The position numbers and the translations under genes are program-made. From Streptomyces sp. NRRL S-337 (lineage in GTDB: Bacteria > Actinomycetota > Actinomycetes > Streptomycetales > Streptomycetaceae), in contig NZ_JOIX01000058.1 of NCBI RefSeq assembly GCF_000720175.1, forward strand, positions 1 through 45,547: 45,547 nt of DNA, read 5' to 3'. The notes under the pieces were generated by a model that saw only the letters and a list, made by a program, of their open reading frames with translations, was not told where the DNA came from and searched no databases. This document shows, piece by piece, positions 24,026-29,996 of this stretch. Position 1 is the stretch's first letter; every line of letters begins with the position of its first letter.

Positions 24026-25456
24026 ATGGGCGCACAGGCAGCGGGACCGCTCGTCCTCGGCGTGGACAGCTCGACGCAGTCCACGAAGACGCTGGTCGTG
24101 GACGCGGAGACCGGTGTGGTCGTGGCGCGCGGGCAGGCGCCGCACACGGTCGGCGGCGGCCCCGGCAAGGAGAGCGACCCCCGGCAGTGGTGGCGGGCGC
24201 TGGGCGAGGCGCTGGCGCAGTGCGGGGACGCCGCCCGGCAGGTCTCCGCGGTGTCGGTCGCCGGGCAGCAGCACGGGCTGGTCACGCTGGACGCGGCCGG
24301 TGAGCCGGTGCGCCCGGCCCTGTTGTGGAACGACGTCCGCGCCGCGGGCCACAGCGAGCGGCTGATCGCCGAGCGGGGCGGCGCCCGGGCCTGGGCCGAC
24401 CGGGTGGGGAGCGTGCCGGGCCCGGCGTTCACGGTGGCCAAGTGGGCCTGGCTGCGGGAGACCGAGCCGGCCGCGGCCGCCGTCACCACCGCGGTGCGGC
24501 TACCGCACGACTACCTCACCGGGCGGCTCACCGGCGAGGCGGTCACCGACCGCGGGGACGCCTCCGGCACGGGCTGGTGGGCCTCGGCCACCGGGGCGTA
24601 CGACACGGAGATCCTGGCGCACGTCGGGCTGTCCCCGGAGGCGCTGCCCCGGGTGGCCGGGCCGGGCGAGGCCGCCGGGACGGTGCACGCCGGTGAGCTG
24701 CCGCTGCCCCGGGGTGCCCTGGTGGCCGCGGGCACCGGCGACAACATGGCGGCCGCGCTCGGCCTCGGCCTGCGCCCCGGACAGCCGGTGCTGAGCCTGG
24801 GCACCTCGGGGACGGTCTACGCGGTCTCCACCCACCGCCCGGCCGACCCGACCGGCACCGTCGCCGGTTTCGCCGATGCCCGGGGCGACTGGCTGCCGCT
24901 GGCCTGCACCCTGAACTGCACGCTCGCGGTGGACCGGGTGGCGGCGCTGCTGGGCCGCGACCGGGAGGCCGTGGAGGCGGGCGGCGAGGTGGTGATGCTG
25001 CCGTTCCTCGACGGGGAGCGCACGCCGAACCTGCCCGGGGCCTCGGGCCTGGTGCACGGGCTGCGGCACGACACCACGGCCGGCCAGCTGCTCCAGGCCG
25101 CCTACGACGGCGCGGTGTTCGCGCTGCTGCGGGCGCTGGAGCAGGTGCTGGATGCGGACGCCGCGGCCGGGACGCCGCTGCTGCTGATCGGCGGCGGTGC
25201 GAAGGGCCGGGCCTGGCGGGAGACGGTCCGCCGGCTCTCCGGCCGCCCGGTGGTGGTGCCCGAGGCCCAGGAGCTGGTCGCGCTCGGCGCGGCGGCCCAG
25301 GCGGCCGGGCTGCTGCTGGGCGAGGACCCCGCGGCGGTGGCCCGCCGGTGGGGCACCGCGCGCGGCACGGAGTACGAGGCCCAGCCACGGGACGACGCCG
25401 CCCTGCACCGGCTGGCCGCGACCCTCACCGACGCGGACACCCTGCTACGGCGCTGA
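24026..25456 (+). CDS. xylB: xylulokinase
   Basis: 476 aa, the normal length for XylB. It is an FGGY/ASKHA-fold kinase: [15 protein letters not shown] at the start (phosphate 1), [14 protein letters not shown] and ALLWNDVR for sugar binding, catalytic D239 in [26 protein letters not shown], and [12 protein letters not shown] near residue 390. It phosphorylates D-xylulose to xylulose 5-phosphate for the pentose phosphate pathway. ATG 24026 has AGGGAGAG upstream. The frame stays open to an ATG at 23933, which would add a 31-residue basic leader ([17 protein letters not shown]...), but that start has no ribosome site. It stands 1.6 kb before the tandem encapsulin genes, making it a candidate cargo. 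Confidence 0.96.
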
Positions 25457-25478
25457 ACCCCCGGCGCCGAACCCGCCC

Positions 25479-25520
25479 GTACGGACCCGCCGGTACGGTC
25501 CGCCCGGTACGCACCTGCCC
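25479..25520. repeat. three 14-base tandem repeats between xylB and xylR
   Basis: GTACGGACCCGCCG, GTACGGTCCGCCCG and GTACGCACCTGCCC follow each other exactly at 25479, 25493 and 25507. They lie in the 164-base spacer between the xylB stop and the ROK gene. They could be a regulator-binding array or a slippage product. Confidence 0.45.
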
Positions 25521-25620
25521 TGCCGCCCTACGGTGGCCCGGGCACCCCCTGCCGATACAGCGGCACTCCCCCGCCCCCGCCCGGGGAGACTCCGCCCGAC
25601 ACCTACCTCCAAGGAGACCC

Positions 25621-26980: not shown

Positions 26981-27064
26981 CGGTTCGGCGGGCTGCCGAG
27001 AAACCGCTGCGCATCGCTTCCTGGGCAGTCCCGCATCGCACCCTCCCATGAGACAGGTGGCATT

Positions 27065-28474
27065 GTGACGATTGCCGACGAATCGTATCCCGGCAGTGCG
27101 GAAGAATCCCAGAATTCCAGTCTGAGTACCACCGCCGCACGGAATTTGGCGACCACCACCAAAACCGCGCCGCAGATGCAGGGCATCACTTCCCGCTGGC
27201 TGCTGCGGTTGTTGCCCTGGGTGCAGGTGTCGGGCGGCACCTACCGGGTGAACCGCCGGCTGACCTACACCGTCGGCGACGGGCGCATCGACTTCGACAT
27301 CAACGGCGGCGACGTCTCGGTCATCCCGGAGGAACTGCGCGAACTCCCCGCCCTGCGGGACTTCACCGACCACGAGGTGCTGGCGGCGCTCGGCGAGCGG
27401 TTCACGCAGACCGAGTACGCGCCCGGCGAGCTGATCGCCGAGGCCGGCACGCCGGACGACCGGCTGGTCCTGATCGCGCACGGCCGGGTGGACCGCATCG
27501 GCACCGGCAAATACGGCGACGCGACGGTGCTGGAAGCGCTGGCGGGGGGTGACCATTTCGGCACCGGTCCGCTCGAAGCCGAGGAAGCGACCTGGGAGTT
27601 CAGCTACCGGGCGGTGACCCGGGTGACGGTCATGGCACTGCCGCGCCAGGCGGGCCAGGAAGTGATCGACCGCTCCCCCGGGCTGCGCGAGCATCTGGCG
27701 ACGGCCGACCGGTCCGCCTCCCGGCCGGCGAACGACAGCGGCGAATCGGCGGTCGCCGTGGCGTCCGGGCACCAGGGCGAGCCGGCCCTGCCCGGCACCT
27801 TCGTCGACTACGACGCGGCGCCGCGGGAGTACGAACTCAGCGTGGCCCAGACGGTGCTGCGCGCGCACAGCCGGGTCGGCGACCTCTACAGCGACCCGAT
27901 GAACCAGGTCGAGGAGCAGCTGAAGCTCACGATCCAGGCGCTGCGCGAGCGCCAGGAACACGAGATGATCAACAACCGCGAGTTCGGGCTGCTGCACAAC
28001 GCCGACCTCAAGCAGCGCATCCACACCCGCACCGGACCGCCCACCCCCGACGACCTCGACGACCTGCTCGCGACGGTCTGGAAGGACCCGGGCTTCCTGC
28101 TCGCCCATCCGCAGGCCATCGCCGCCTTCGGCCGGGAGTGCAGTGCCCGCGGGCTGTATCCGACCGCGGTGGATTTCATGGGGCATTCGCTGCCGTCCTG
28201 GCGCGGGGTGCCGATCTTCCCGTGCAACAAGATTCCGGTCACCAAGGACCGCACCAGCTCGATTCTGCTGCTGCGCACCGGCGAGGAAAAGCAGGGCGTG
28301 GTCGGTCTGCAGCAGACCGGAATTCCCGATGAATACGAGCCGGGGCTGTCGGTGCGTTATATGGGCATCGACGACCGGGCGGTCCTCAAGTATCTGGTCA
28401 GCGCCTACTATTCCGCGGCCATTCTCGTGCCCGATGCGCTGGGCGTGCTGGACGACGTGCAGATCGGCCACTGA
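27065..28474 (+). CDS. family 2B encapsulin shell protein, copy 1
   Basis: 469 aa from GTG 27065 (AGGTGG upstream). The N-terminal arm ([20 protein letters not shown]) and the start of the E-loop ([19 protein letters not shown]) are followed at about residues 85-230 by a cyclic-nucleotide-binding-like beta-barrel ([20 protein letters not shown], then [17 protein letters not shown]). The HK97-type P-domain (spine helix [20 protein letters not shown] near 292) and A-domain ([14 protein letters not shown] near 381) come next, ending [16 protein letters not shown]. Such proteins assemble into icosahedral compartments that hold an enzyme. By hand alignment to CRP, the cAMP-contacting Glu72 and Arg82 positions are Thr and Trp, so ordinary cAMP binding looks lost. 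It pairs with the paralogue 106 bases downstream and lies just after the xylose genes. Confidence 0.93.
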
Positions 28475-28580
28475 GCGGCCGCCGCAGGACAAGCACGACA
28501 GCACGCGCCTCCGCGGGCATCCGCACGCCCCCGGTAGCACCGGCACAGCGCAGCACCGACAGAACAGGTGAGCTTCTTCC

Positions 28581-29996
28581 ATGACCACATCGGTGGACCC
28601 GACGTCCGGCCCGCAGCCCTCCGAGGTCGAGCAGAATCCGTCCAGCCTGGGCACCGCCGCGGCCCGCAATCTGGCGACCACGACCAAGACCGTGCCGCAG
28701 ATGCAGGGGATCTCCTCCCGCTGGCTGCTGCGCATCCTGCCGTGGACGCAGGTCTCCGGCGGCACCTACCGCGTCAACCGCCGGCTGACGCACACCCTCG
28801 GCGACGGGCGGATCGAGTTCGTCTCGACCGGCACCGACGTCCGGGTGATCCCGGCCGAGCTGCGCGAACTGGCGCCGCTGCGCGGCTATGACCACGCCCC
28901 GACCCTGGAGACGCTGGCCGGCCGCTTCGTCCAGCGGGAGTTCGCCCCCGGCGATGTGCTGGTCCGCAGGGGTGGCCCGACCGACCGGGTCATCCTGATC
29001 GCGCACGGCAAGCTGGACCGGCTCGGCGCCGGCAAGTACGGCGAAGAGACGTCCCTGGGCACGCTGGCCGACGGCGATGCCATCGGCGCGGCGGCGCTGC
29101 TGTCCGGGGAGGCGGAGTGGGAGCACTCCGTGCGGGCGGTGACCCGGGTGACCGCACTGACCCTCTACCGCAGCGACTTCGAGGCGGTGCTGGGCGATTC
29201 CGATTCCCTGCGGGCGCACATCGAGGCGTTCCGTACCGCGCTGGCGCCCGCACAGAACAAGCACGGTGAGGCGGCCATCGAGCTGGCCGCCGGCCATGTC
29301 GGCGAGCCGGTGCTGCCGGGCACCTTCGCGGACTACGAACTGACGCCGCGGGAGTACGAACTCAGCGTGGCGCAAACGGTGTTGAAGGTGCACTCCCGGG
29401 TCGCCGACCTCTACAACGGGCCGATGAACCAGCTGGACCAGCAGCTGCGGCTGACCGTGGAGGCGCTGCGCGAGCGCCAGGAACACGAGATGATCAACAA
29501 CCGCGAGTTCGGGCTGCTGCACAACGCCGACCTCAAGCAGCGCCTCCACACCCGCACCGGACCGCCCACCCCCGACGACCTCGACGAGCTGATCTCGCGG
29601 CGCCGCAAGACGCAGTTCCTGCTGGCCCATCCGCGCACCATCGCCGCCATCGGGCGGGAGTGGAACGCCCGGGGGATCTACCCCTGCACCGTCCCGTTCG
29701 AGGGCGGCGAGGTGCGGGCCTGGCGGGGCATCCCCCTGCTGCCCTGCAACAAGATCCCGATCACCCCGGACCAGACCAGCTCGATCCTGGCCCTGCGCGT
29801 CGGCGAGGAGAACCAGGGCGTGGTCGGGCTGCACCAGACCGGCATCCCGGACGAGTACCGGCCCGGCCTGTCCGTCCGCTTCATGGGCATCAACGACCAG
29901 GCGGTCATCAACTACCTGGTCAGCGCGTACTTCTCGGCGGCCGTGCTGGTGCCGGACGCGCTGGGCGTCCTGGAGGACGTCGAGATCGGCCACTGA
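28581..29996 (+). CDS. family 2B encapsulin shell protein, copy 2
   Basis: 471 aa from ATG 28581. It has the same architecture as the upstream copy: N-arm, split E-loop, inserted cyclic-nucleotide-binding-like domain (about 85-230), then P- and A-domains. By eye the first conserved block (AARNL to GDGRI-x-F) is 47/54 identical to copy 1, the inserted domain only about 45%, and the P/A-domain part about 70%. The phosphate-binding cassette reads [20 protein letters not shown], again without the cAMP glutamate and arginine. The two proteins could co-assemble into one mixed shell or form separate shells. The ribosome site is weak (AGGTGAG). A strong hairpin follows the gene, so the operon probably ends here. 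Confidence 0.93.

Follow-up and report, generated by a model that had tools for sequence, protein, structure and literature searches.

A xylulose-kinase-type two-component Family 2B encapsulin locus in Streptomyces sp. NRRL S-337: a loosened link to XylB and a tentative cargo encoded elsewhere

The window analyzed here is the whole 45,547-nucleotide contig NZ_JOIX01000058.1 (contig C58) of the 9.06 Mb genome of Streptomyces sp. NRRL S-337, and it contains a pair of encapsulin shell genes, Enc1 and Enc2, in the order xylA<>xylB-ROK-Enc1-Enc2 (22.7–30.0 kb). The xylA gene (22709..23872, minus strand; TIGR02631, 697 bits, cut-off 447) encodes a xylose isomerase and is divergent from xylB (24026..25456, plus strand), which encodes a xylulokinase of 476 residues with ordinary termini, FGGY_N and FGGY_C domains and a TIGR01312 match of 446 bits (cut-off 380); a GGGAG stretch lies 8 bases 5' of the XylB ATG at 24026. 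A ROK-family regulator with a GTG start follows on the plus strand (about 25621..26907; PF00480, 5e-45) and is XylR-like by position. Enc1 (27065..28474, 469 residues; NF041163, 759 bits) and Enc2 (28581..29996, 471 residues; 760 bits), both on the plus strand and both well above the NF041163 cut-off of 400, complete the order; xylB, ROK, Enc1, and Enc2 are intact open reading frames. Downstream on the same strand are an Amidase_2 gene (30222..30893; PF01510) and a gene for a NAGPA phosphodiester glycosidase (31133..32392; PF09992), each with what appears by eye to be a signal-type N-terminus.

Enc1 and Enc2 are 66% identical to each other, and both contain the SrpI-like HK97-type shell domain (PF19307, E 3e-134 and 1e-137), preceded by a cyclic-nucleotide-binding domain (cNMP_binding, PF00027) at residues 116–203 and 119–204, respectively; judging from this domain order, the latter probably sits in the E-loop. 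Enc1 matches PDB 9bje with an E-value of 2e-267. The diagnostic motifs of the two proteins, TVWK in Enc1 and RRRK in Enc2, match those of two-component Family 2B encapsulins, with a deviation in motif 2 of Enc2. We regard the assignment of the locus as a Family 2B shell pair as virtually certain, and it fits the published xylulose-kinase (XK) two-component class as a well-preserved and otherwise unremarkable example. In the available excerpts of the survey by Andreas and Giessen (2021) that describes this class (PMC8346489), 124 Family 2B systems with xylB are described, all from Streptomyces and all with two shells; XK is listed as a putative cargo, and the XKs, unlike other cargos, are said to lack consistent disordered stretches. 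The accessible part of a structural study (PMC12407261) reports XK-type shells of S. lydicus in which Sl-Enc1 and Sl-Enc2 co-assemble into mixed shells, with Sl-Enc1 forming no shells by itself, and gives the native cargo of XK systems as not determined. The sequence-only reading of the window had described two distinct tandem shell genes with cyclic-nucleotide-binding-like domains 3' of xylB and ROK on the same strand, and had mentioned that surveys predict XK cargo and that two-component shells occur in Streptomyces; all of this is borne out by the domain matches and by these two papers. Its statement that no terpene cyclase is encoded in the window also holds, as the three PF19086 matches of the genome are on contigs C88 and C2.

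A separate observation concerns the shell coding sequences themselves. Rfam RF02735 (Saccharopolyspora sRNA 350; Sernc350) matches the window at 27099–27609 and 28629–29134 on the minus strand, antisense to both shell genes, with 168 and 82 bits. The RF02735 family probably overlaps Family 2B shell coding sequence, and such matches may be misread as small RNA genes.

Comparison with relatives suggests that the link to xylB is looser than the class name implies, and that the name may mislead. Among the best 80 of 188 named loci, which were kept for this comparison, XylB lies upstream of Enc1 in 23, with or without ROK between them, and at L060 it lies about 5 kb from the pair. At 13 named loci the pair adjoins NAGPA with no xyl genes at the locus, and LysX follows in 12 of these 13; NAGPA is also found near the pair in XK loci. 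XylB was sought in 15 genomes, 12 of which were picked because xylB is not beside the pair (L022 and 11 genomes with the pair in the NAGPA/LysX slot). All 12 contain an intact pair and no close XylB ortholog; their best kinases match at 44–46% in ten and at 57% (L066) and 56% (L069) in two, which perhaps belong to the second xylulokinase type seen in the 150-genome draw below. XylB orthologs in S. endophytica (L006), S. lydicus (L008), and L060 match at 97, 88, and 77%. One of the 12 genomes, that of S. celluloflavus (L022), falls inside the XK clade, where xylA, xylB, and ROK are gone from the locus and both shell genes are intact. At three loci (L120–L122), the pair is followed at a distance of about 0.5–2 kb by an acyl-CoA dehydrogenase-like gene.

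A draw of 150 genomes gives a similar picture. At least 24 of them, among the matches listed, have two shell genes close together, counting G089, in which a cyclase separates the two. In seven of these 24, XylB and the pair are no more than about 2.2 kb apart, in five the distance is 3–6.3 kb, and in eight the two are separated by 81 kb or more or are on different contigs; in the remaining four no XylB was found at E<=1e-120, and one of these (G060) is also among the 12 genomes above. Three genomes (G060, G031, and G086) are counted both in the draw and among the named loci. XylB itself is common, being present at E<=1e-120 in 128 of the 150 genomes as two sequence types of about 69–88% and 59–63%. 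From genomes in which no pair was among the matches seen, 17 loci were chosen; all 17 have xylA and ROK together with xylB, and 14 have, 3' of xylB, the amidase gene that in the window comes after Enc2. In G136 only about 0.2 kb separates ROK from the amidase gene, and in G088 the xyl-ROK-amidase block is intact with the pair about 3.6 Mb away. Because the xyl block is thus intact without a nearby pair, ROK and amidase appear to be old neighbors between which the pair later came to be placed. LysX was also considered as an ancestral neighbor of xylB, and this was ruled out, as the two are far apart in genomes without a pair such as G040 and G067. Since the pair persists without a close XylB and the xyl block persists without a nearby pair, the neighborhood argument for XylB as cargo is weakened, and we consider it very probable that XylB is not an obligatory cargo.

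The XylB proteins themselves point in the same direction. None of 56 XylB sequences contains the G[LIFP]GT[SA] tag discussed below, and linked XylB share no terminal extension, their termini being much as in unlinked XylB. Linked and unlinked proteins do differ at three internal near-fixed positions (74, 110, and 211) and near the N-terminus. A possible 31-codon extension of XylB from 23933 was rejected: the frame is open in the window, and across 30 linked XylB loci the upstream open stretch ranges from 3 to 476 codons of dissimilar sequence. The sequence-only reading was thus right that XylB has an ordinary length and no loading extension, and its suggestion that the 31 codons might serve as one is not sustained. 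Its proposal of a compartment made of two protomers that encloses XylB or another pentose enzyme survives as far as the two-component Family 2B shell is concerned; XylB as a required content does not, given the 12 of 12 genomes with a pair and no close ortholog. It had named an unconserved xylB-encapsulin linkage as one of two findings that would count against its proposal, and the neighborhood comparison shows that relatives which keep the pair do not consistently keep the linkage.

The region between ROK and Enc1 contains what is predicted to be a separate promoter. Directly after ROK lies a perfect palindrome, TTTCCATGGAAA (26911..26922), which occurs once in the whole genome (control 0) and recurs, exactly or nearly so, 5' of Enc1 at 14 of 24 named XK loci. 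It is followed by an operator-like inverted repeat, CACCC-N4-GAGCG plus ATTG (26936..26953, plus strand), identified by motif conservation, and by a putative promoter, TTGTGC and TACCGT with an 18-base spacer (26951..26980, plus strand), whose layout is similar by eye in relatives; the start site would be at about 26987. The general form of the region (26936–26980 in the window) is CAYYC-N4-GRGNGA, then a TTG-type -35 and a TANNNT-like -10. The inverted repeat is found before Enc1 in all 31 XK loci, in 21 of the 25 remaining loci of the pair clade, and in 2 of 41 further loci, for which shuffled sequences lead one to expect 0.08, 0.04, and 0.07; as the motif was defined on part of the counted loci, these counts describe conservation and are not a test, and the groups hold at least three duplicates (L114 = L026, L116 = L060, and L117 = L065). 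The four pair-clade loci without the full repeat keep its right half-site, and the repeat was never found before Enc2 in any of the three groups. It is kept with or without xylB, and also in XK loci without ROK. ROK was considered as the Enc1 regulator and is unlikely to be, as the operator persists in ROK-less loci. The operator motif has six matches in the genome (control 2); besides the one at Enc1, one (C14:63846-63863; L153) is just 5' of what looks by eye like a GntR/aminotransferase-like regulator gene. From the conservation of these elements, Enc1 quite probably has its own promoter; read-through from xylB-ROK into Enc1 may also occur.

The pair was placed among its relatives with a FastTree phylogeny of 195 shells, in which the shell from contig C25 of this genome serves as the root and the loci were picked by likeness to Enc1. 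The XK Enc1 proteins group together in a single clade (31 rows, support 100), which is nested in a pair clade (117 rows, support 98) that is almost entirely from Streptomyces. Outside the pair clade, 63 of 78 rows have a terpene cyclase or prenyltransferase within 6 kb, and none was recognized in the remaining 15. The shells' own N-arm pattern was captured in 149 of the 195 rows; the pattern itself fixes L, T, A, A, and R/K, and the preceding serine and the following L and K are not imposed by it. In the XK genome G086, a geosmin synthase with tags in its linker and tail directly adjoins an Enc2-like shell gene. A Streptomyces locus inside the pair clade (L126, from G089) has a two-domain terpene cyclase between Enc1 and Enc2.

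Two more Family 2B shell genes are found elsewhere in the NRRL S-337 genome, at C2:330605 (L086) and C25:25534 (L087). The C2 gene adjoins a single-domain terpene cyclase and a methyltransferase-like gene, neighbors that are presumably of the 2-methylisoborneol kind, and the C25 gene has no recognized cargo alongside. A 2-methylisoborneol encapsulin has reportedly been described.

The genome also encodes, on contig C88, a two-domain geosmin-type synthase that matches the NCBIfam model for family 2 encapsulin cargo terpene cyclases with 1204 bits (cut-off 1200). Of 25 shell-linked two-domain cyclases, 19 carry the tag G[LIFP]GT[SA] within their last 70 residues and 24 carry it in the tail or interior, versus one of 953 tails of other neighboring open reading frames. 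In XK genomes, the geosmin synthase tail contains G[LI]GT[SA] in 23 of the 23 named genomes that have the gene, with the full GLGTSAAR in 15, and GLGTS is present in six of six NAGPA/LysX-slot genomes. When rows of geosmin synthase tails were picked by G[LIF]GT, 24 of 25 were captured (the row not captured is probably L023, with GLGTA); beyond the G, G, and T that this pattern imposes, the L and the S after the T were invariant in them. Positions flanking the tag vary by 0.7–2.7 bits, except for the P two before the tag (0.25). The likeness of this GLGTSAAR-like tag to the shells' own N-arm was noticed in the present analysis. Geosmin synthase occurs in 23 of the 24 pair genomes of the draw, among the matches listed, and in 29 of 30 named genomes, but it is near-universal in the genus (146 of 150).

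Genomes without a pair are mixed with respect to the tag. None was found in the tails of nine of nine short-match geosmin synthases from such genomes (L195–L202 and L206), possibly reflecting loss of encapsulation there. Of six more geosmin synthase tails from genomes without a pair (G045, G068, G074, G076, G113, and G135), three are tagged (G076, G113, and G135). Tag and pair coincide in 22 of 23 pair genomes, compared with the tag in 56 of 120 others (Fisher p 5e-6), where the tag was scored by a match-length proxy with hand corrections and the genomes are not phylogenetically independent; the proxy scored G012 and G074, whose tails end in FGMSAAR, as tagged. A scan of the genome for LGTxAAR alone was uninformative, with 16 matches and 15 in the control. 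In a search of open-licence papers, PMC8346489 was the only one found to pair an encapsulin with geosmin synthase; no further encapsulin paper on terpene cargo of the geosmin synthase-like kind was found, and none pairing an encapsulin with xylulokinase. Geosmin is nowhere mentioned in the main text of PMC12407261.

We propose the following explanation, to which, taken as a whole, we assign a probability of roughly 0.6. By analogy to the S. lydicus proteins, a single mixed shell is most likely built from Enc1 and Enc2 together, and their genes are most likely transcribed as a unit of their own, driven by the conserved promoter and inverted-repeat operator predicted just 5' of Enc1. The xyl genes would be a chromosomal neighborhood that also exists without the pair, which in the XK clade lies between ROK and amidase, and XylB would not be an obligatory content. 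Instead, the shell most likely contains a tagged enzyme encoded elsewhere in the genome, for which the C88 geosmin synthase is the best single candidate; its GLGTSAAR-like tag may bind where the N-arm binds, as suggested by the likeness between the two. As a specific identification, geosmin synthase as the cargo of this pair is tentative, being more likely wrong than right.

A number of observations weigh against this explanation or its parts. The tag of the NRRL S-337 protein is degenerate (VPDGLGTSAFR), and the geosmin synthase tail of G035 is degraded. With the NCBIfam model, two geosmin synthases from NAGPA/LysX-slot genomes score 1156 and 1184, under the cut-off, and two tail-less ones come close at 1147 and 1153. 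A genome scan for P-x-G-[LF]-G-T-x-A gave four matches versus six in the control, i.e. no enrichment; one is 20 residues from the end of the geosmin synthase, one on contig C29 is 101 residues from the end of the frame of a plausible protein, and two are in unlikely frames. The tag changed only twice on the tree, so the paired test is powerless and the association is without phylogenetic weight; 23 of 86 rows were dropped from this test, 14 of them tag-bearing genomes without a pair. No geosmin synthase was found at E<=1e-200 in two pair genomes, G096 and that of S. endophytica, whose shells are 96% identical to those of the window. The two other Family 2B shells of the genome could take the geosmin synthase, and the Enc1 operator was not found before the geosmin synthase gene in this genome. 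The nesting of the XK pairs depends on the chosen root and on the choice of Enc1-like loci. Finally, XylB seems to be kept for something, and a functional tie to the shell may exist: of 29 distinct XK loci that have xylB, the window among them, 13 (L011, L012, L014, L017, L020, L021, L023–L026, L048, L076, and L111) retain xylB next to Enc1 with xylA and ROK absent from the locus, and xylB without xylA is also found near the pair in L060 and L119, versus none of the 17 chosen loci without a pair. The ratio of nonsynonymous to synonymous substitution rates (dN/dS) of XylB is 0.11–0.22 in seven xylA-less pairs and 0.14–0.21 in six xylA-bearing pairs.

These last observations also speak for XylB as the native cargo, which is what the published class name supposes; loading would then be via a folded surface and not a tail. 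XylB lies upstream of Enc1 in the 23 named loci counted above, stays beside Enc1 under purifying selection at the 13 of 29 loci from which xylA and ROK are gone, in comparison to the 17 of 17 chosen loci without a pair that keep all three genes, and is listed as a putative cargo in the excerpts of PMC8346489. Against it stand the 12 of 12 genomes, picked for xylB not being beside the pair and including one from the XK clade, in which the pair is intact with no close ortholog; the absence of the tag from all 56 XylB and of a common terminal extension from linked XylB; and differences between linked and unlinked XylB that are at internal positions 74, 110, and 211 and near the N-terminus. We consider XylB as cargo unlikely. 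About as plausible as the geosmin synthase itself, and likewise short of an even chance, is that some other enzyme encoded in trans fills the shell, or that the particle has no enzyme of its own and serves in storage or regulation. The two pair genomes in which no geosmin synthase was found at E<=1e-200 are consistent with this, as are the fact that no cytosolic enzyme gene was seen kept beside all xyl-less pairs and the statement in the available part of PMC12407261 on XK cargo. Against it, the P-x-G-[LF]-G-T-x-A scan, which would miss an unlike tag, yielded no second tagged tail.

Alternatively, XylB could act outside the shell in the same pathway, phosphorylating 1-deoxyxylulose to the terpenoid precursor 1-deoxyxylulose 5-phosphate (DXP); its persistence next to a terpene-type shell after xylA has gone would then make sense. 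The retention of xylB without xylA at the locus and the mostly terpene-linked shells outside the pair clade fit this idea, and phosphorylation of 1-deoxyxylulose by xylulose kinase is reported in excerpts of PMC8791446 and PMC11055089. However, this substrate role is putative for the window XylB, xylA may lie elsewhere (the xylA-less XK genome G086 has a second xylA-xylB set at another place), and the pair also persists without a close XylB; we judge the idea very improbable. Scarcely more probable is that Enc1 and Enc2 form two separate homomeric shells, a possibility raised in the accessible text of PMC8346489 and compatible with the sequences. Against it, the S. lydicus pair co-assembles and Sl-Enc1 alone forms no shells (PMC12407261, in the part available), and the window pair has the same TVWK and RRRK diagnostic motifs. 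A broader scenario, somewhat less remote and still quite unlikely, is that XK encapsulins are misnamed terpene nanocompartments, into which geosmin synthase encoded in trans would be loaded by mimicry, the tag replacing the N-arm and the two shell proteins tuning the number of free N-arm sites, with the adjacent XylB, retained after the loss of xylA, making DXP outside the shell.

What is new here is the comparative evidence that loosens the link between XylB and the shell, a promoter-like element belonging to Enc1, and a tag-bearing candidate encoded in trans. For a shell whose content is given as not determined in the parts at hand of the 2025 structural paper (PMC12407261), one concrete protein and one short tag can now be named. 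Contrasting species exist in each direction: S. celluloflavus has the pair and no close XylB, and S. endophytica has the pair and no geosmin synthase found at E<=1e-200. If geosmin synthase is indeed the cargo, a common odor of soil would be made inside a protein shell in the XK clade.

Among known systems, the closest is that of S. lydicus (PMC12407261, as far as available); in an S. lydicus genome (L008) the gene order is the same and Enc1 and Enc2 are 88% and 90% identical to the window proteins. The domain plan and the TVWK and RRRK motifs are common to both pairs, whereas diagnostic motif 2 of Sl-Enc2 is GAELHGTDVR and has other letters in the window Enc2; moreover, the S. lydicus shells have been seen assembled, and the NRRL S-337 pair is known here from its genes. 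The locus likewise resembles the XK class as described in the excerpts of PMC8346489, with xylB, a xylR-like regulator, xylA, acetylxylan esterase, and two Family 2B shells in Streptomyces. The survey suggests a role in xylose use for that class, but we find the pair without xyl genes and xyl genes without a nearby pair. Finally, the XK pairs resemble the terpene-cyclase Family 2B encapsulins with geosmin synthase-like cyclases, in that most of the rows outside their pair clade (63 of 78) have a terpene link and in that the GPTGLGTSAAR motif reported for those systems (PMC8346489, in the excerpts available) recurs on the geosmin synthases of XK genomes; they differ in that none of the XK genomes read has its cyclase directly beside the XK pair.

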